A stretch of 64,000 nt of DNA from Martelella endophytica (lineage in GTDB: Bacteria > Pseudomonadota > Alphaproteobacteria > Rhizobiales > Rhizobiaceae). Location: the NCBI RefSeq assembly GCF_000960975.1, contig NZ_CP010803.1:2011944-2075943 (forward strand). The letters are read 5' to 3'. The position numbers and the translations under genes were made by a program. The notes under the pieces were generated by a model, which saw nothing but the letters and a program-made list of their open reading frames with translations, did no database searches and had not been told where the DNA came from. The stretch's first letter is position 1. Each line of letters begins with the position of its first letter. Shown here one piece after another: positions 7,784-64,000 of the stretch.

Positions 7784-9082
<1,299 letters not shown>

Positions 9083-9144
9083 CAGGAAATGCGAGTATTG
9101 TAGCGGGAGCGGCCCCGCGTCGGCCCGCACAATAGGGGTAATAT

Positions 9145-11022
9145 ATGGCGGATTTCACAGCAGTCATTCGACGCGCAGTCGAGGGCTTACCGGATAACAC
9201 TCCAGAACTGCGCGCCCGCGTCTATGAGAAGGCGCGGTCTGCGGTTGTCCGGCAGATGGAAAACATGAATCCGCGCCCGCCGGAAGCGCTGATCAAGCGC
9301 CAGATCGACAAGATCGATGCGGCGATTGCCGAGGTCGAGGCCGAGTTCGCCGAAGCCCTGCCGGAAGACGAGGCCGTCGAGGAACCGCCATTCGTCGCCC
9401 CCGATCTTCCGGGCACCGACAATCCGGAGGCCTATGACGCGCCGGAAAGCGAAGACGAGACTCCGGCCGAGCCTGTCGCCGCGCCCTATGAGGAACCGGC
9501 TGCCGATGACGATCGCGAGGAGGAGGACGAGCCCGAGCCTCTGTCCTGGCAGCAAAGCCCCGAGCCCGAACCGCCGCATCACGAGGAGCCGGTCGAGGAT
9601 ACCGAACCCGAAGAGGCTTACGAGGACGAGCCGGAGGCGCCCGCCTATCGTTACGGCGATACGGCACCCTATGGTGGCTTCCACGGCGCGACCTTCGAAC
9701 CCGTCGATCGAATCGAGGACGAGGAGCCGGAGCCCGACTACAGTTTCGAAGCGCCGGATGAGCCGCTCGATGATAGTGCCGGCGTGGTTCTTTCCGACGA
9801 CGATGAAGACGAGGACGACGAGCTCGACCGCCACACCGGCCAGTCTGACTGGGCCTTTGCAGCCGCAAGCCCGGCTGAGAGCGCGTTCGAGCCTGCACCG
9901 CCGCCGCCGCGCCGCCCCGTGCCGGAAAAGGACTGGGCGCATGTCGACAGCCTGCTCGGACTGGAGCCCGAAGAGCCGGGTAGCGGTTTCGACGAATTCG
10001 AAAATGAGGGCGAGGAAGCAGCCCACCAGGACCCTGGTGACGGTCGCCGCCGGCGGATCGTCATGGCTGTTGTCGGCGTCGTCGTGCTTCTGGTCGTCGC
10101 CGTCGGTGGTTATCTTGGCTGGTCGAACCGCGATACGCTGATGGCGCTGGTTTCGCCCGCCGACGAGCCGGCCGCCGTCCAGACGACGCCGCCGGAAACC
10201 GCCACCTCCGGTCAGGATGGTTCCACGTCGAGCGACCAGGCTGCCGCGCCGGCGCAGGGCGAGACTGCGGGCATCGAAAAGCAATTCACCCAGCGCCTGC
10301 TCCCCGACGGCAACGAGGTCGAGGAAGGGCTTCCCGCTGCCGGAACCGAGACCGGCCCGGCCCGCACTGTTGCCAGCCAGACGACGGCGAGCAGCGAGGC
10401 ACCGCCGGCCGCCGGCCAGAATGCTGCCGATCCGGCCCCGCCCGTCGGTGCGGCGCAGAAGATGTATGTCTATGAGGAACAGCTCGGCCAGTCGGTGCCC
10501 TCGGCCTTCCAGGGAACGGTGGAATGGGAGCTGAAGCAGGAGAAGAACGGCACGGATGTGCCCGAACCGGTCATCGAAGGCACGATGAGCGTGCCGGAGG
10601 CCGGCATTGCCGGGACCGTCACCTTCCGCCGCAACGATGATCCCTCGCTTCCGGCAAGCCACCTCGTCGACATCGCCTTCACGCTGTCGGACAATTTCGC
10701 CGGTGGCGCGGTCGAGAATGTGCAGCGTATTTCGATGAAGAGCACCGAGGCCGCCCGCGGCGATCCGCTGATCGCCGTCTCGGCCAAGATCACCGATGAC
10801 CTCTACATGCTGGCGTTGAACGATTTCGACCAGGCCCGCGCCCAGAACCTTGCGCTTCTCGGCGATCGCAACTGGATCGACATCCCGATCACCTACCGCA
10901 ATGGCCGCCGGGCATTGCTGACGCTGGAAAAGGGCACGACCGGAATGGCGATCTTCGATCGCGCCATCCAGGAGTGGCAGGCCCTCGGCGATATCGGTGA
11001 CAGCGGCAATACCGGCAACTGA
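9145..11022 (+). CDS. uncharacterised acidic single-pass membrane protein
   Basis: Not recognised as a named family. The 625-residue protein has four parts. Residues 1-70 are a helical N-terminus (DFTAVIRRAVEGLPDNTPELRARVYEKARSAV begins it). Residues about 70-295 are highly acidic, Pro/Glu/Asp-rich and probably disordered. A run of Arg is followed by one transmembrane helix at about 303-325 (VMAVVGVVVLLVVAVGGYLGW). After another low-complexity Ala/Thr stretch, a compact domain spans about 430-620, presumably periplasmic. It sits just behind purA and ends at a strong hairpin. The plan of cytoplasmic disordered tail, one helix and an external domain suggests a scaffold or sensor, but this is inference only. 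Confidence 0.8.
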   Translation: MADFTAVIRRAVEGLPDNTPELRARVYEKARSAVVRQMENMNPRPPEALIKRQIDKIDAAIAEVEAEFAEALPEDEAVEEPPFVAPDLPGTDNPEAYDAPESEDETPAEPVAAPYEEPAADDDREEEDEPEPLSWQQSPEPEPPHHEEPVEDTEPEEAYEDEPEAPAYRYGDTAPYGGFHGATFEPVDRIEDEEPEPDYSFEAPDEPLDDSAGVVLSDDDEDEDDELDRHTGQSDWAFAAASPAESAFEPAPPPPRRPVPEKDWAHVDSLLGLEPEEPGSGFDEFENEGEEAAHQDPGDGRRRRIVMAVVGVVVLLVVAVGGYLGWSNRDTLMALVSPADEPAAVQTTPPETATSGQDGSTSSDQAAAPAQGETAGIEKQFTQRLLPDGNEVEEGLPAAGTETGPARTVASQTTASSEAPPAAGQNAADPAPPVGAAQKMYVYEEQLGQSVPSAFQGTVEWELKQEKNGTDVPEPVIEGTMSVPEAGIAGTVTFRRNDDPSLPASHLVDIAFTLSDNFAGGAVENVQRISMKSTEAARGDPLIAVSAKITDDLYMLALNDFDQARAQNLALLGDRNWIDIPITYRNGRRALLTLEKGTTGMAIFDRAIQEWQALGDIGDSGNTGN

Positions 11023-12474: not shown

Positions 12475-13995
12475 ATGACCTACACCCCGCACGGCAAGCA
12501 CCTCATCGGTGGCGAATGGACCGCCGCCGATATCACCTTTTCCTCCGCGCCGGCCAGCGGCACGCCGCACGAATTTTCCGAGGCGAGCGAAGAGCTGATT
12601 GATGAGGCGGTCAAGGCGGCCGAGGCGGCGTTCTGGTCTTATGGCTATTCCAGCCGCAAGGAACGGGCGGCATTTCTGGAGCGGATTGCCGACGAGATCG
12701 AGGCGCGGGCGGATGACATCACCGCGATCGGCACGGCCGAGACCGGTCTGCCGGCCGGGCGCCTTCAGGGCGAGCGCGGCCGCACCACCGGCCAGCTCCG
12801 CATGTTCGCCCAACATATCCTGAAGGGTGCCTATCTCGACCGCCGCCACGATGTGGCCATTCCCGACAAGACCCCGCCGCGCCCGGACCTGAGGATGATC
12901 GAGCGGCCGATCGGCCCGGTGGCGGTGTTCGGCGCCTCGAACTTCCCGCTCGCCTTTTCCACCGCCGGCGGCGATACCGCATCGGCGCTTGCGGCCGGCT
13001 GCCCGGTCGTGGTCAAGGGCCATCCCGCCCATCCCGGCACGGCGGAAATCGTCGCCGAGGCGATCCTTGCGGCGATCGAGGCCTGCGGCGTCCACCCGGG
13101 CGTGTTCTCGCTGGTTCAGGGAGCCTCCTACGAGGCAGGCGGTGCGCTCGTCACCCATCCGCTGATCAAGGCCGTCGGCTTCACCGGCTCGCTGAAGGGC
13201 GGCAAGGCGCTGTTCGATCTCTGCGCGGCACGCGACGAGCCGATCCCGTTCTTCGGCGAACTCGGCTCGGTCAATCCGAACTTCCTGCTGCCGGAAGCGC
13301 TCGGGCATCGTGGCAAGGACATCGCCAAGGGCTGGGCGGCTTCGCTGACCATGGGCGTCGGTCAGTTCTGCACCAATCCGGGCATCATGGTCACCCTTGC
13401 CGGTCCAGAGGCCGATGGCTTCGCCAAGGCCGCGGCGGAGGCGCTGGGCGAGGTCGGACCGGCGGTGATGCTGACGGAGGGCATCGCCCGGGCCTATCGC
13501 GGCGGGGCCGAGGCTGTTGCGGGCGCGAAGGGCGTCGAGACGCTGGTGAAGGGCAAATGCGAGGCCCGCGAGGGTGCGCCGGCGCTCTACCGCACCACCG
13601 GCAAGGTGTTTCTCGACAACCCCGATCTTGCCCATGAGGTTTTCGGTCCGCTGGGCATCATCGTCATGGCCGCGGACGCGCAGGAAATGCGCGCAGTCGC
13701 CGAGCGGCTCGAGGGGCAGCTGACCTGCACCCTGCACATGGAACGCGACGATACCGAGTTTGCCCGGACGCTGCTGCCGGTGCTGGAGCGCAAGGCCGGG
13801 CGCCTGCTAGCCAATGGATTTGCGACCGGCGTCGAGGTGTCGGATGCGATGGTCCATAGCGGCCCATATCCGGCCTCGACCAATTTCGGCGCGACGTCGG
13901 TCGGCACGCTCGCAATCCGCCGTTTCCTGCGCCCGGTCTGCTACCAGAACATTCCGGAAGCGCTGCTGCCGGAAGATATCCAGCACATCGCGTGA
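12475..13995 (+). CDS. 2,5-dioxovalerate (alpha-ketoglutaric semialdehyde) dehydrogenase
   Basis: Oxidises 2-ketoglutarate semialdehyde to 2-ketoglutarate, the last step of pentonate, galactarate/glucarate or hydroxyproline degradation. The 506-residue sequence belongs to the special ALDH branch that has FGASNFPLAFS and GGDTASALAAGCPVVVKGHP instead of the usual PWNFP region. The general base Glu262 (GELGS) and nucleophile Cys299 (GQFC) are present. CAAGGAG stands 8 bases before the ATG. It follows the FAH-fold gene by 25 bases and is closed by two hairpin terminators. Confidence 0.92.
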   Translation: MTYTPHGKHLIGGEWTAADITFSSAPASGTPHEFSEASEELIDEAVKAAEAAFWSYGYSSRKERAAFLERIADEIEARADDITAIGTAETGLPAGRLQGERGRTTGQLRMFAQHILKGAYLDRRHDVAIPDKTPPRPDLRMIERPIGPVAVFGASNFPLAFSTAGGDTASALAAGCPVVVKGHPAHPGTAEIVAEAILAAIEACGVHPGVFSLVQGASYEAGGALVTHPLIKAVGFTGSLKGGKALFDLCAARDEPIPFFGELGSVNPNFLLPEALGHRGKDIAKGWAASLTMGVGQFCTNPGIMVTLAGPEADGFAKAAAEALGEVGPAVMLTEGIARAYRGGAEAVAGAKGVETLVKGKCEAREGAPALYRTTGKVFLDNPDLAHEVFGPLGIIVMAADAQEMRAVAERLEGQLTCTLHMERDDTEFARTLLPVLERKAGRLLANGFATGVEVSDAMVHSGPYPASTNFGATSVGTLAIRRFLRPVCYQNIPEALLPEDIQHIA

Positions 13996-14008
13996 GATCG
14001 GCAAAAAT

Positions 14009-14034
14009 AAACCCGCCGGAGGCGGCGGGTTTTT
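14009..14034 (+). terminator. intrinsic terminator after the semialdehyde dehydrogenase
   Basis: AAACCCGCC (14009-14017) and GGCGGGTTT (14024-14032) form a GC-rich stem ending in a T tract, 14 bases after the stop codon. Confidence 0.88.
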
Positions 14035-14038
14035 CGAC

Positions 14039-14065
14039 AGGCGGGCGCGACAGCCCGCCTTTTTC
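14039..14065. terminator. second, bidirectional hairpin between convergent genes
   Basis: AGGCGGGC (14039-14046) pairs with GCCCGCCT (14053-14060) and is followed by five T on the plus strand. It lies 15 bases past the efp stop on the other strand, so with the first hairpin it probably ends both transcripts. Confidence 0.82.
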
Positions 14066-14079
14066 ATGCGCTGAAGCGC

Positions 14080-14649
14080 TCAGTCCTTGGCGCGCTCGAC
14101 GTAGGAGCCGTCCTCGGTGAGGATGACGACGCGGGTGCCGGCGTCGATATGCGGCGGCACCATGGTGCGCACCCCGTTCGACAGCATGGCCGGCTTGTAG
14201 GACGACGAGGCCGTCTGGCCCTTGACGACGGGTTCGGTCTCGGTGATCTCCAGGGTCACCTGGCGCGGCAGTTCGAGCGCAATGGCAACGCCCTCGTGGA
14301 TCGACAGGACCACGGTCATGCCCTCGGAAAGATAGGCGGCGGCATCGCCGACATCATCCGCGCTCATGGTGAGCTGATCGTAGCTCTCCGGGTTCATGAA
14401 GTGGAACCCTTCGGCATCGTTGTAGAGGAAGGTGTGGTTGTTGTCTTCGACGAAGGCGCGCTCGACCTGCTCCGTCGTCTTCCACCGCTCCGAAACCTTG
14501 ACGCCATCCGAGATCCGGCGCATGTCCACCTGGGTCACGGGCGTGCCCTTGCCGGGGTGGAAATTCTGGGCGGTGAGAACGACGTAGAGCCTGCCGTCGA
14601 CATCGACGACATTGCCCTTGCGCAGCGACGAGGCAATGACCTTGACCAT
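14080..14649 (-). CDS. efp: translation elongation factor P
   Basis: Relieves ribosomes stalled at polyproline stretches. The 189-residue length is that of EF-P, with the three beta-barrel domains ([68 protein letters not shown]). The modified residue is conserved as Lys34 in HPGKGTP, where EpmA attaches beta-lysine. The start MVKVIASS at 14649 is chosen over an in-frame ATG at 14694 because family alignment begins there. It diverges from epmA, its modifying enzyme. Confidence 0.97.
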
Positions 14650-56543: not shown

Positions 56544-57104
56544 TCAGGAAAGGCGGTTCTGGGTGGCGCAGGCCCGCCGCCAGCCGGACGGCGTATAGCC
56601 GGTGTGCCGGCGGAAGATGCGCGAAAGATGCGCCTGGTCGGCAAGTCCACAATCAAGCGCAATTTCCGAAAGCGGGGCATCCGTCAGCGCGATCCGCCGC
56701 TTCGCCAGCTCCACGCGTCGGGCGATGACATAGGCATGCGGCGAAACGCCAAAGCTGACCTTGAAGGCGGCCGAGAAATAGCTCACGCTCAGCCGAAGCT
56801 GTCCGGCAAGATCAAGCAAGGCGATCGAACCGTCGATATTCTCCTCGATATAGCGCTTGATCTTGGAAACCTGCCATGGCGCAAGCCCACCCTTGGCGAT
56901 GGCCCGGTTCGCGGATGCCGGAGCTGGCGGCGCGCCGCTGCCAGCCATCATCTGCTGTGCCTGGCTGAGGCAGGCGAGCGCCTTGCCACTGTCGCTGCCG
57001 ATCAGCAGGAGCGCCTGCATGACGATATGCGAGACGTCGGCGGGCGCCTCTTTGCCGGAGGTCGTTACATGGTTGGCGGGCATTGGCAATGTGGCTTCGG
57101 TCAT
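56544..57104 (-). CDS. stand-alone AraC-type HTH transcriptional regulator
   Basis: 186 residues. Both HTH motifs of the AraC DNA-binding domain are present at about 95-180 (SIALLDLAGQLRLSVSYFSAAF; LSEIALDCGLADQAHLSRIFRR) with the FGVSPHAYV linker, but the N-terminal 75 residues carry no recognised sensor domain. This short SoxS-like form suggests control by expression level. GAGCCGAG precedes the ATG. A 60-codon gene follows in the same direction. Confidence 0.9.
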   Translation of the reverse strand: MTEATLPMPANHVTTSGKEAPADVSHIVMQALLLIGSDSGKALACLSQAQQMMAGSGAPPAPASANRAIAKGGLAPWQVSKIKRYIEENIDGSIALLDLAGQLRLSVSYFSAAFKVSFGVSPHAYVIARRVELAKRRIALTDAPLSEIALDCGLADQAHLSRIFRRHTGYTPSGWRRACATQNRLS

Positions 57105-58828: not shown

Positions 58829-59800
58829 TCAGCCCTGGATAAAGGCCAGAATATCGGGATTGATCACCTCGGCATGGGTGGTCAGCATGCCGTGCGGGAA
58901 GCCCGGATAGATCTTCAGCTGCGAGCCGGACACCAGTTTCGCCTGCAGCTCGGAAGCGTCCTTGTAGGGCACGATCTGATCGTCATCGCCCTGCAGGATC
59001 AACGTCGGCACGGTGATCGCCTTGAGATCGTCCGTCTGGTCGGTTTCCGAAAACGCCTTGATACCGTCGTAATGGGCCTTGGCGCTGCCGTTCATGCCCT
59101 GCCGCCACCAGTTGGTGATCACGCCTTGATAGACCTTCGCATCGGGACGGTTGAAACCGTAGAATGGGCCGGAGGCGACATCAAGGAAGAACTGCGCCCG
59201 GTTCGCCGCAAGCTGCGCACGGAAGTCATCGAAGACAGCAATCGGCGTGCCGCCGGGATTGCTGTCGGACTTGACCATGATCGGCGGCACTGCGGCAACC
59301 ATGACGAGGCCGGCAACGCGCCCCTGAGGCTGGCCGAAACGGGCAACGTATGCAAGCGCCTCGCCGCCACCGGTGGAATGGCCGATATGGACTGCATTCT
59401 TGAGGTCAAGCGCGGCAGTGACAGCTGCGGCATCGGCGGCATAATGCGCCATGTCGTGCCCGTCGCTCACCTGCGCCGAACGGCCGTGGCCACGGCGGTC
59501 ATGGGCGACAACGCGAAAGCCCTTGTTGACGAAGAACATCATCTGGGCGTCCCAGTCATCGCTGGAAAGCGGCCAGCCATGGTGGAACATGATCGGCTGG
59601 GCATCTTTCGGACCCCAGTCCTTGTAGAAAATCTCGACGCCATCCTCGGTGGTGATAAAGTTCTCGGCCATCTGGCTCGCTCCTTCAGGTTGATTTTCGG
59701 GCTCATCCGCCATCGCGATTGACGGAAGCACAGCAAAGAAAGATGCGGATGCCCCGCCAATCAGCGCTTGCCGGCGTGTGAGGGAAATCAGGTCGTTCAC
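58829..59800 (-). CDS. Tat-exported alpha/beta hydrolase, non-heme chloroperoxidase type
   Basis: 323 residues. A twin-arginine leader (SLTRRQALIGGASASFFAV, cleavage near AMADEP) precedes the core that starts ENFITTEDGVEIFYKDWG. Oxyanion MFHHGWPLSSDDWD, nucleophile GHSTGGGEAL, acid in QGDDDQIVPY, base His in PGFPHGML are those of bacterial perhydrolases/chloroperoxidases. Close relatives are usually cytoplasmic, so the export signal is an oddity. The gene stands about 58 bases before the DUF1275 gene in the same direction. Confidence 0.9.
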   Translation of the reverse strand: MNDLISLTRRQALIGGASASFFAVLPSIAMADEPENQPEGASQMAENFITTEDGVEIFYKDWGPKDAQPIMFHHGWPLSSDDWDAQMMFFVNKGFRVVAHDRRGHGRSAQVSDGHDMAHYAADAAAVTAALDLKNAVHIGHSTGGGEALAYVARFGQPQGRVAGLVMVAAVPPIMVKSDSNPGGTPIAVFDDFRAQLAANRAQFFLDVASGPFYGFNRPDAKVYQGVITNWWRQGMNGSAKAHYDGIKAFSETDQTDDLKAITVPTLILQGDDDQIVPYKDASELQAKLVSGSQLKIYPGFPHGMLTTHAEVINPDILAFIQG

Positions 59801-59889
59801 GTTCGTCTCCTTCAGATATCGACAAGCCCTTGCGGTTGTTCTGACGGAGACGAAACTAGCGATGAGGGAGACATGCCGATTGTCAAAAC

Positions 59890-60720
59890 ATCAGGCGGTT
59901 TGAACGATCGTGCGGTGGAGTTTGGCTGGCAGATGCGAACTTGCCCCGAGCGCCGGCGCTTCGGCTACCGCCGGATCCATTTCATGCTGGATCGGCAAAG
60001 GATCGTCATGAACCTGAAGAAACTCCGGCGGCTTTACCGGGAAGAGAAGCTGACCGTGCGCAAGCGCGGCAGCCGCGAGAGGGCATTGAGAACAAGGCGA
60101 CCATTGGGCTTGCCCTCACGCCCCATCGAGCGCTGGAGCCCGGATTTCATCAGTGATGCCTTCATAGATGGCCGCCGCTTCCAGGTGTCGTAAATGGCTT
60201 CACCCGCGAATGCTTGTGTCTCGTCGCGGACACATCGCTGTCTGGCGTTCGCCTTGCCCGGGAGCTGGACACCTTCATCGACAGGCGAGGCAAGCCAAGG
60301 ACTACTGTTTCCGATAACGGCACGGAGATGACCAGTATGGCGATCCTCAAATGATGCCAGGAGACCCATATTGAATGGCACTATATCGCTCCCGGCAGGT
60401 CGATGCAGAACGGCTTTATCGAAAGCTTCATGTGTAGACGGCCCCGCGGGCGCAAGTGCTTTAATTGTGATGTCCATCGGTGGTGAGTTTATGTATTCGG
60501 CCTGTTCATGCAGCCCTTGCATGACTGCGGGCCCTGATGGTGTGCGCCGATCAGCGAGACGCTGTTCTCGTCGCTCGCCAAAGCGCGCGCTGCCATCTCA
60601 ATTTGGAAGGAGGATTACAACGCAAACAGGCCGCTTTCATCGCTGGGCAATATCATCACCAACGAGCTCGCAATGAAAATGGCACTGGAGAAACAGGCCG
60701 CTTGAGGCCAGATTGGAAAC
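59890..60720 (+). mobile_element. degraded IS3-family (IS407-group-like) orfB transposase remnant
   Basis: Frames on the plus strand together give a decayed DDE transposase: RRRFGYRRIHFMLDRQRIVM and LKKLRRLYREEKL in one frame (stop 60191-60193), then FTRECLCLVADTSLSGVRLA, VSDNGTEMTSMAILK with TGA in place of Trp, and HIEWHYIAPGRSMQNGFIESF in a second, and finally LFSSLAKARAAISIWKEDYN and a terminal QAA to TGA 60703-60705. At least one frameshift, one nonsense change and a scrambled stretch (about 60440-60560) are present. No intact inverted repeats identified. Confidence 0.85.
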
Positions 60721-60955
60721 CCGATAATCTCCGGAAAATGGAAGAAAATCGGGCCTCAGGTCAACAATCCTCTACACATGCCACCCGTCCGGCGAAGCCG
60801 ATGCTTCACATCGGAACCAAAACCCAACTTTTTGTGACTTTCATTGGGGGCGTTTACAGTTAACGCTCTGCCCAATAACTCTTAACAACACTGAACTCGT
60901 CCGATAGGTGGCTTGCGGTCACTCTTTCTGCATCCAGATGCAAAAGGAGTTTTCG

Positions 60956-61432
60956 ATGATCGCATCTTTGTACAGCAACGACGATCACGTCGTTCCCGGT
61001 TGTGCCAGCCGATTTGCGCCCCCGACCGGACTCGCCGACTGGCAGTGCAAGAAAGTCATACGCTTCGTCGCCGGCAATTACGAGCGTTCCCTGCGGGTCT
61101 CCGATCTCGCCAGCGTTGCGCGACTGAGCGCCAGCCAATTTTCTAAATCATTCCGCGTGAGTTTCGGCATCTCGCCTTACGACTATGTTCTCAGGATACG
61201 CATCGAGGCTGCCAAGGATCTGCTTTGCTGCTCCGACGAGCCCCTCAGCCAGATCGCCTACGGCTGTGGGCTCTATGATCAGGCCCATCTTTCCCGGCTT
61301 TTCAAGAGATATGTCGGCACATCCCCGCAGCGTTGGCGGCGTTTTGTGAAGTCTGAGGAACGATGCGGCACAATCAGACGGAGCGGTGCCGCGACCCTGG
61401 TGAGGTCGCAGACAGTCAGCCGATTGAACTAG
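60956..61432 (+). CDS. stand-alone AraC-type HTH transcriptional regulator
   Basis: 158 residues, consisting of little more than the AraC DNA-binding domain (about 30-128): LRVSDLASVARLSASQFSKSF and LSQIAYGCGLYDQAHLSRLF with a GISPYDYVLRIRIEAA linker. No sensor domain; the last 30 residues are basic. AAAGGAG lies 8 bases before the ATG at 60956. The 250 bases before it hold only the end of the IS remnant. Similar to the AraC-type gene at 56544-57104 in size and both HTH motifs. Confidence 0.9.
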   Translation: MIASLYSNDDHVVPGCASRFAPPTGLADWQCKKVIRFVAGNYERSLRVSDLASVARLSASQFSKSFRVSFGISPYDYVLRIRIEAAKDLLCCSDEPLSQIAYGCGLYDQAHLSRLFKRYVGTSPQRWRRFVKSEERCGTIRRSGAATLVRSQTVSRLN

Positions 61433-61884: not shown

Positions 61885-64000
61885 CTAGGCCGCAGAGGTG
61901 GCCTGTACTTTTCCAGCAAGCGGAATGGCGATATCGAAGATCGCCCCGCCGGTGTCGCTGTTGCGTGCAGACAGCGAACCACCGTGCGCTTCGGCGATCG
62001 TTTTGCAGATTGCCAGACCGACGCCCATGCCATCCTTCTTGGTGGTGAAGAATGGGTTGAACAGCTTGGCGAGATTATCGTCTGAAATGCCGGGGCCATT
62101 GTCCGAGATCGTGATGATGGCAAGTCGGTCAGAGGTCTCGTGCGCGCGAACGGCAATTTCCATCTGTCGTTCCGTGGCGGGGCGCTCACGCATGGCCTGG
62201 ATGGCGTTCGTTATCAGGTTCGTCAGTAGCTGCTGCATCTCCAGACGGTCGGCCTGGATGAAGATCGAGGGCTCAGCAAGCCGGAATGCGACTCGCACGC
62301 GTGCGGTCAGCAACTCACGTTCCATAAGATCAAGCACTTCTGAAATCAGCGTCTTGACCTCAAGAGCTCCTACGCTTCGCTTTTCGCCACGCAGCAATTC
62401 ACGCGTCTTCTGAATGATCTTGCTGGCCCTGAGGCTGTGCTGAACCGCACGCTCGGCGGCTTTCGTCGCCGACTGTATATCGGGCGGGCTTGCAGCAAGC
62501 CAGCGCATGCAGGCCTGTGCGCTCATCACGGCTGCCCCGATAGGTTGGTTCACCTCATGGGCAATGGAAGCAGATATGGCCCCGACTGTTGCAATCCGTC
62601 CGGCGCGAGCCAGCTCCCCTTGCGCCAGAAGCATCGCTTCGCGGGCATGTTCGCGCTCCGTGATGTCAACAATAGCGCAAGCAACTCGCTCGAGCGCATT
62701 CGACGGCAGCGCCAGTACGATATGGACCAGCCGCTCTCCTCCATTTCGGTCGATGAGCGCCGTCTCGGTTTCGAGTTGCGATGCACCAGCCGAAAGTGCG
62801 GCAAGCATCTTAACCGGCAATTCGCTTTCGGGCGGAAGAAATACGCTGATCGGTCCCAAAACCTCGCTCGCTCGTTCACATCCGAGCAGCTGAAGCGTTG
62901 CGCGGTTCGCATCGGCGAGAAGGATGAGATCGCCGAAGCTTTCTGGATTTTGCGGTCCGCATTTAGGTGAGGTCGCGCCGCGGTGTTGGCTCGGTTCCTT
63001 TGCCTCGTTGATCACCAAATCGGCGAGCTGTGAGAGGTCAATTTCGCACAAGGCGATGTGATTCTGTTCGAAGATGGAGCGGTACCGTGCCTCGCTCTTT
63101 GATAGGTCGGAAAGCGCACGTCGTCTGGCGCTGGCGTCGAAGGCGACGAGACTAATCCCACCCATGAGCGTTACATAGAAGCCTACGGCCACAAGCCCGC
63201 TCATATTGGCGAGCGTTTGAGAGATGATCGGCGAGAAAGCGCCACCAAGAATGCCGCCGATGTTGAAAGCAACAGACGTTCCGGTGTAGCGCACACGGGC
63301 AGGAAAGAGGCCTGGCAGCCAAGCGCCGAGTGGACCATTGACGACGCCCATGACGGTAAGAGAAAAGGCGAGCAGCATGAATATCGTCACCAGAGAGCCG
63401 CTGCCAAGCATGGGCGCAAGCACTATTCCGGTGACGATCGTGCCGTAGCAGCCGAACATCAGTACGCGTTCGGCATCCTGCCGGTCGGACCACCAGCTTG
63501 CCAGGATGATCGCCACTGCCATGAAGCCGATCGCGGCCAGCTCAATCATCAGGAAGGTTGAGCGTTCGTAGCCGAGTACGCCCGTGCCGTAGCCGAGCAT
63601 GAATGCAGTGACCGTATAGTAGAGCGAAAAGCAGGCAATCACCCCAAGGGCACCGATGATGACTTCACGCCACTGGTTCTTGAACACCTCGAGAAGGGGA
63701 ACCGATGCCGGACTTTCATCCGCCATGGCCTCGGAGTATTCGCGTGTTTCTACCAGATTAAAGCGAACCCAAAGCCCGAGCCAGACTAGTGGAGCGCTTG
63801 CAATGAATGGAATACGCCATCCCCAATCGGCAAAATCTTCGGGTGTCAGGCAAAGCGTTAGGATTAAGAACAGTCCATTGGCCAGCACAAACCCAACAGG
63901 CGCGCCAAGCGGCGCGAACATCGCATAGCGCGTTTTCCAGCCTGGCGGGGCGTTTTCAAAAGCGATGAGCGCCGCGCCGGTCCATTCGCCGCCGAGCGCC
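61885..64000 (-). CDS. MFS (MHS-type) transporter fused to PAS-like and histidine kinase domains (N-terminus outside window)
   Basis: One continuous frame with no internal stop runs from beyond 64000 to 61885 (more than 700 residues). The first third visible is an MFS transporter of the metabolite:H+ symporter kind (the GGEWTGAALIAFENAPPGW signature at the window edge, then six to eight helices down to about 63135). A short linker leads into a PAS-like region (about 63120-62650) and then a sensor kinase: phosphoacceptor His in SIAHEVNQPIG (codon 62557-62559), N-box LLTNLITNAIQAM, G1/G2 DNGPGI and GMGVGLAICKTIAEAHGG. This would couple transport or ligand binding to signalling. No response regulator is visible on this side; it may lie beyond 64000. 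Confidence 0.88.
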   Translation of the reverse strand, partial: ALGGEWTGAALIAFENAPPGWKTRYAMFAPLGAPVGFVLANGLFLILTLCLTPEDFADWGWRIPFIASAPLVWLGLWVRFNLVETREYSEAMADESPASVPLLEVFKNQWREVIIGALGVIACFSLYYTVTAFMLGYGTGVLGYERSTFLMIELAAIGFMAVAIILASWWSDRQDAERVLMFGCYGTIVTGIVLAPMLGSGSLVTIFMLLAFSLTVMGVVNGPLGAWLPGLFPARVRYTGTSVAFNIGGILGGAFSPIISQTLANMSGLVAVGFYVTLMGGISLVAFDASARRRALSDLSKSEARYRSIFEQNHIALCEIDLSQLADLVINEAKEPSQHRGATSPKCGPQNPESFGDLILLADANRATLQLLGCERASEVLGPISVFLPPESELPVKMLAALSAGASQLETETALIDRNGGERLVHIVLALPSNALERVACAIVDITEREHAREAMLLAQGELARAGRIATVGAISASIAHEVNQPIGAAVMSAQACMRWLAASPPDIQSATKAAERAVQHSLRASKIIQKTRELLRGEKRSVGALEVKTLISEVLDLMERELLTARVRVAFRLAEPSIFIQADRLEMQQLLTNLITNAIQAMRERPATERQMEIAVRAHETSDRLAIITISDNGPGISDDNLAKLFNPFFTTKKDGMGVGLAICKTIAEAHGGSLSARNSDTGGAIFDIAIPLAGKVQATSAA

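Follow-up and report, generated by a model that had tools for sequence, protein, structure and literature searches.

A gene at one end of the DNA that we analysed encodes a full MFS transporter domain, a PAS-like domain and a full histidine kinase core in one chain, a transporter-kinase fusion that is a real, inherited gene design. Our preferred reading, to which we give a probability of roughly 70%, is that of a transceptor kinase made once by domain replacement, in which a rhizobial PAS kinase, already paired with a FixJ-type regulator, had its small membrane sensor replaced by an MHS-type MFS transporter. The gene design suggests that the cell uses a transporter as a sense organ; from the sequence, a signalling role of the fusion is likely, and the idea that the transporter acts as a receptor is well motivated.

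The window, a 64,000-nucleotide stretch of the Martelella endophytica genome (G000:C1:2011944-2075943, in an assembly consisting of a single contig of 4,812,500 bases), holds most of this gene at 61885..64000 on the minus strand, the strand of all features of the fusion given below, and the gene continues 356 bases beyond the window edge. The whole gene spans G000:C1:2073828-2076299 when read from an ATG, or extends to 2076341 when read from a TTG. It lies within an 849-codon open frame with zero internal stops in the assembly sequence; the TTG start gives a protein of 837 aa, which we use for residue numbering, and the ATG at residue 15 gives 823 aa, the length of the database copy (P0001). 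The sequence-only reading had taken the region 61885-64000 for a single-frame fusion, and this is borne out, as the region is open throughout and relatives share the architecture. Extending the sequence past 64000, as that reading had proposed, reached the start of the gene within the same frame and revealed a regulator gene beyond it.

A domain search with the full protein placed Pfam MFS_1 at residues 25–390 (74.9 bits, cut-off 33.4), HisKA at residues 609–672 (29.0 bits, cut-off 26.9) and HATPase_c at residues 717–828 (86.5 bits, cut-off 26.4), all above their cut-offs. The transporter half belongs to the MFS, a secondary carrier family of very large size, both by the MFS_1 match and by its fold, since the corresponding part of the AF2 model aligns over 342–406 residues to MFS chains among the 50 matches listed. 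Its in-window part, supported by Pfam and AF2, lies at 63142..64000 (residues 134–419, TM4 to TM12). At an E-value of 0.01 the only transporter families matched in Pfam were MFS_1 and Sugar_tr, which rules out an SLC5 identity; the Pfam search, whose library may lack a STAC model, gave no STAC match, and the AF2 model has one helix at that place. The initial assignment to the MHS type was right in kind but did not reach the curated level: NCBIfam TIGR00883 (MHS) matches over positions 1–399 of 400 with 373.3 bits, below its cut-off of 443.45. Five free relatives (398–429 bits) and three other fused proteins (364–382 bits) also fall short of it, and by sequence the fused transporter clade is MHS-related, yet outside the TIGR00883 cut-off.

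The kinase half is complete, as had been read from the DNA. The DHp/HisKA region (62389..62661, residues 580–670; Pfam and AF2) contains the motif SIAHEVNQP with His614 (codon 62557..62559), which would be the phospho-acceptor, as in histidine kinases generally. This residue is His in 55 of the 56 fused proteins that we aligned (our own and 55 others, near-duplicates included); the distant fused relative P0056 has Lys there and is perhaps a version without kinase activity. The HATPase_c catalytic domain follows at 61909..62370 (residues 677–830; Pfam and AF2), with N, G1, F and G2 boxes recognisable by eye. Structure comparison places the kinase half of the model nearest to FixL-type chimeras, and the NCBIfam FixL equivalog NF041777 matches the kinase core only, with 154.8 bits against a cut-off of 850; judged by these matches, the kinase half is FixL-like but not FixL. 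Between transporter and kinase, the PAS-like section noted previously appears as a variable PAS-like domain in the AF2 model (62665..63060, residues 447–578), whereas its Pfam PAS_9 match is weak (20.0 bits) and under the cut-off of 27. The model, with a mean pLDDT of 79, shows the MFS helices and a TM12 prolonged as one predicted helix that enters the PAS domain (63064..63195, residues 402–445); as a monomer with a pTM of 0.59, it shows the fold and not the coupling geometry.

The protein search yielded at least 120 relatives among 1346 matches, with 7997 candidates scored. A genome scan used two peptide patterns, of which one spanned the fused TM5 signature, and gave 75 loci from the best 80 of 252 matches; these locus counts depend on the choice of patterns and are lower bounds. 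With a query spanning the junction, only the Martelella genome itself gave a full-query match among 297 genomes sampled from its family, the other 35 matching genomes being partial, and it was again the only one in samples of the class (385 genomes) and the phylum (398 genomes). In the family of the Rhizobium deserti carrier, the fusion was found in 3 of 346 genomes, that carrier included; these samples overlap, and few candidates were scored per genome. The low number of copies in the family search raised the idea of a transfer from another order, which we rejected, as the Martelella genome and that of Rhizobium deserti are probably members of one family. Carriers include members of Rhizobium, Agrobacterium, Neorhizobium, Mesorhizobium, Shinella, Azorhizobium, Ancylobacter, Methylobacterium, Tardiphaga and Chenggangzhangella, one Paraburkholderia and a metagenome assembly labelled Janthinobacterium. 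A search of 72,556 plasmid records gave five, from Rhizobium and Agrobacterium, in which the match covers 80% or more of the query. The fusion is rare, scattered and at least partly plasmid-borne. Public names for it are split: mostly ‘MFS transporter’ in the NCBI records found, as for the fusions on three annotated Rhizobium plasmids, sometimes ‘histidine kinase’ in UniRef, and both in some JGI entries, so that some records hide the kinase and others the transporter.

Both halves of the protein point to a single origin. In the MFS tree, all fused domains fall into a single clade (support 100/99) that lies within the free transporters, and the fusion therefore probably arose once. This tree was built from 70 of 116 rows, 43 fused and 27 free, leaving out near-duplicates, partial rows, many free rows and P0057. 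A quicker tree of all 116 rows gives the same picture with one apparent exception, P0057, a 522-aa entry whose MFS domain is identical to that of fused proteins from the Methylobacterium radiotolerans group and which is probably a truncated fused protein. The kinase tree, made with a quick method, likewise unites the fused rows in one clade (SH-aLRT 93), and the only ‘free’ rows inside it are the kinase pieces of two frame-broken loci, L036 and L039. Our own copy sits on a long branch in the quicker MFS tree and in the kinase tree; the latter carries a long-branch warning, and its several long branches, that of our copy included, mean that its fine structure should not be relied on.

Among free kinases, the nearest that the genome scan retained (46 loci, L040-L086 without L066) have a short N-terminus in front of the shared PAS region. 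A crude count puts 2–4 hydrophobic helices in it and may be too low, as the same counter finds only 7 helices in our own fused protein. Since members of the free kinase family carry such a short membrane N-terminus, it appears that a small sensor gave way to the transporter. A FixJ-type gene lies within 1.5 kb of the free kinase in 44 of the 46 loci. The likely history, as judged from sequence comparison, is that a whole transporter displaced a small membrane sensor in a kinase already paired with a FixJ-type regulator.

The regulator had been expected near the fusion and outside the window, and it is there: a divergent FixJ-type gene shortly beyond the window edge (L011:4542-5210), with REC and GerE domains above their Pfam cut-offs, followed by a gene for a stand-alone receiver (REC) protein (L011:5306-5671). 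The NCBIfam FixJ equivalog NF006900 gives the regulator 190.1 bits against a cut-off of 255, which makes it FixJ-type and not FixJ by this measure. An adjacent, divergent FixJ-type gene is found in 25 of 28 related loci (the exceptions being L029, L032 and L039), and a stand-alone REC protein with 49–66% identity in 26 of the 28 (not L032 and L039). A divergent regulator also stands directly next to the fusion on the three annotated Rhizobium plasmids; two of them have the receiver beside the regulator, and in the third a single gene separates the two and the receiver is on the opposite strand. This conserved neighbourhood argues strongly, if indirectly, that the fusion kinase pairs with the adjacent FixJ-type regulator.

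The intergenic region between fusion and FixJ-type gene contains the inverted repeat ACCTA-N10-TAGGT in 10 of 26 cases (L012-L015, L017-L019, L031, L033 and L034), seemingly one close group of relatives, for which it is a possible regulator site. We rejected a common operator in this region; related words do occur in our own region, but they are arranged differently.

A second kinase of the same broad family, with 35% identity in the kinase half, is encoded outside the window, 7 kb beyond the fusion (L011:11279-13195, plus strand), and has its own REC and FixJ-type genes (13181-13558 and 13590-14216, both minus strand), so that two related modules stand side by side. Around them are three short proteins of AraC-type appearance (60908-61432, plus, and 56544-57104, minus, in the window; L011:10066-10557, plus), two confirmed by Pfam HTH_18 and the third read by eye; by clustering, an AraC-type protein is near the fusion in 19 of 30 loci, our own and L066 included.

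The metabolic neighbours vary between groups of loci, and no single ligand or regulon emerges from them. Several relatives have oxidoreductases nearby (an SDR, a zinc alcohol dehydrogenase, a quinol monooxygenase, cytochrome c and, in one case, a molybdopterin enzyme accompanied by a 2Fe-2S protein), together with a short AraC-type regulator and an MRJP-like protein. The genes around our own fusion encode an isochorismatase-like hydrolase, an aldo/keto reductase, an OpuAC-type binding protein and an MRJP-like protein. These genes hint at alcohol, aldehyde or small-acid metabolism. In the gene lists of five loci with free relatives, no common pathway was seen by eye. The window also contains IS3-type transposase-like remnants at 59768-60430, recognised by eye, of which a 55-base piece (60376-60430) matches an IS3 family transposase on a Phyllobacterium plasmid.

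Whether the transporter half still works as a carrier bears directly on how it might sense. Median identities between our protein and the 55 other fused proteins are 72% for the MFS domain, 69% for the linker, 37% for the PAS domain, 71% for DHp and 46% for the ATPase (CA) domain, making the MFS the best conserved domain; such a pattern would follow from selection on the recognition of one ligand, and could equally be compatible with ordinary transport. The 59 free relatives share 28 charged, polar or aromatic positions with a conservation of at least 90%; the fused clade has the same majority residue at 27 of these, among them E30, D33, R73, D85, R89, R128, E148, R195, R212, E217, D305 and R370. 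This retention, together with the conservation of the domain, favours a full transceptor, a plausible reading that we hold at somewhat under even odds: the MFS domain would still transport with protons, and the kinase would read flux or occupancy, much as in CbrA, which transports histidine independently of its kinase domains according to the part of the source available to us (PMC7096432).

The 28th position stands against such a reading. At residue 163 in TM5 (codon 63910..63912), 98% of the 59 free relatives have Gln, but Pro occupies the site in all 56 fused proteins. In total the free and fused groups differ by six switched positions, and four of them, G134A, G159A, P162A and Q163P, cluster in TM4/TM5. 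The objection is weakened by controls: the clustering is modest (p 0.03), and five free-transporter control clades have 0, 2, 8, 10 and 11 switched positions against the six of the fused clade, although two of the three clades with more overlap. We therefore discarded the count of fused-specific substitutions as evidence for lost transport, as three of five controls show more; the number is not unusual, and only the location is suggestive.

The same substitution is what speaks for a dead transporter that serves as receptor only, in which TM5 changes abolished transport and kept binding. A PDB profile search for a close MHS structure returned only distant carriers. In a profile alignment the TM5 Gln lines up with a Gln of human SLC22A1/OCT1, and a TM5 Gln of this kind presumably contacts substrate in OCT1 and in sugar porters; in the phosphate transporter 9kmq the Gln lies three residues further on, which makes the equivalence uncertain. 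Ks-Amt5 is a precedent for transport loss, as far as the accessible part of the report goes (PMC5764959). Against the loss stand the remaining landmark residues, all retained, and we regard a dead transporter as a tentative possibility that falls well below an even chance. The loss of the TM5 Gln fits, weakly, a conversion toward a receptor. With Pro at this site in every one of the 56 fused proteins, against Gln in 98% of free ones, transport may itself have changed or been lost, and the earlier suggestion that the protein senses the metabolite it transports is weakened a little. By analogy, either a working signalling carrier like CbrA or a carrier turned receptor like Ks-Amt5 could describe the protein, and we leave the choice open.

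In a third, unlikely alternative, a working transporter merely tethers the kinase to the membrane and the PAS domain is the real sensor. A PAS-like domain is indeed present and is the fastest-changing part of the protein, as a ligand domain might be, and different helices hold this region at the membrane in the free kinase family. The lengths of the connectors tell against it. Residues 402–460, from TM12 to PAS, have the same length without any indel in 55 of 55 other fused proteins, and residues 578–615 are likewise unchanged in length in all 55; lengths differ from our protein in the PAS body of 46 of the 55 and in the ATPase domain of all of them. The transporter domain is, moreover, better conserved than the kinase's own ATPase domain.

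The junction itself is intact. The end of the transporter had been placed correctly at about 63135, and the assembly DNA, suspected of a missing stop at 63060-63160, is open straight through that interval and reads without interruption across 63040-63180. Among 28 related public loci from one-per-species genomes (L012-L039), 26 have the fusion in a single open frame, confirming its presence in relatives; the frame breaks of the other two, L036 (early MFS and PAS) and L039 (within MFS), lie inside domains. The idea that two adjacent genes were joined by a frameshift, sequencing or assembly error can draw on those two broken loci, but it is ruled out for practical purposes by the 26 intact ones and the constant-length connector, by the position of the breaks away from the junction, and by the kinase piece of L039, which joins P0037, an 841-aa fused protein named to the same species, at zero branch length in the kinase tree.

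The transceptor kinase that we prefer could work as follows. A small external metabolite, as the putative signal, would bind in the central cavity of the MFS domain, and the resulting conformational change would shift TM12, prolonged as a rigid helix into the PAS domain, and onward the DHp helices. This movement would set the autophosphorylation of His614, in whichever direction the response goes, and the phosphate would pass to the putative partner, the divergently encoded FixJ-type regulator, which would control its target genes. The single receiver protein may act as a competitor or phosphate sink. A more specific version, which we put forward as somewhat less than an even bet, is an MFS-based transceptor kinase family in which a proton symporter was turned, once, into a ligand-sensing domain replacing a small membrane sensor; the loss of the TM5 substrate Gln would have made the carrier a receptor, with the remaining transport machinery gating the signal.

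This fusion family bears on the question of how a kinase might be driven by a rocking transporter. It is a natural experiment with one apparent origin, offering free transporters at about 60% identity, free kinases with another membrane N-terminus and a helix of fixed length in the fusions, and domain swaps among fused and free proteins would show whether the kinase reads transporter conformations.

Transporter-kinase fusions are already known among SLC5/STAC proteins and Amt proteins, as described in the accessible portions of earlier reports (PMC9100948, PMC7096432, PMC13022988, PMC5764959). For an MFS-histidine kinase fusion, we found no description in the open-licence literature, judged on titles and the beginnings of abstracts. 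The SLC5/STAC kinases CbrA, CrbS and RpuS share with our protein an N-terminal secondary transporter fused to a kinase and a paired regulator, a PAS domain is likewise part of CbrA, and RpuS is present in rhizobia, according to the sections available (PMC9100948, PMC7096432, PMC13022988). Here, by contrast, the transporter is MFS/MHS-like, the regulator is FixJ-type and, in the AF2 model, one helix rather than a separate STAC-like bundle lies between TM12 and PAS. In Ks-Amt5 a transporter has likewise been repurposed as the sensor of a fused kinase, with neither HAMP nor STAC, but it is an Amt trimer that has lost transport (PMC5764959, seen in part), whereas the fusion described here combines an MFS and a PAS-like domain. 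The UhpC-UhpB-UhpA system is similar in that UhpC, of the glucose-6-phosphate transporter type, stimulates a histidine kinase (PMC7096432, in the portion accessible). Its components are separate proteins, while ours form one chain. UhpC belongs to the MFS, UhpA is a LuxR-type regulator and the Uhp kinase is of another family.

Closest in the kinase half are the free PAS kinases of L040-L086, which are homologous to it at 36–46% identity and share the FixJ-type partner. They differ in their short membrane N-terminus and in their FixJ-type gene, which is mostly just downstream on the same strand and not divergent, and a REC gene with more than 45% identity is present in only 1 of the 46 loci. 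Nitrospirillum amazonense (L066:7953-11351) has an MFS gene (7953-9248) separated by 27 bases from a PAS kinase gene (9276-10586), and a FixJ-type gene lies next to this pair; as MFS and kinase are two genes here and the MFS protein is 29% identical to ours, we regard it as a parallel arrangement of the same parts and not as a direct ancestor of the fusion.
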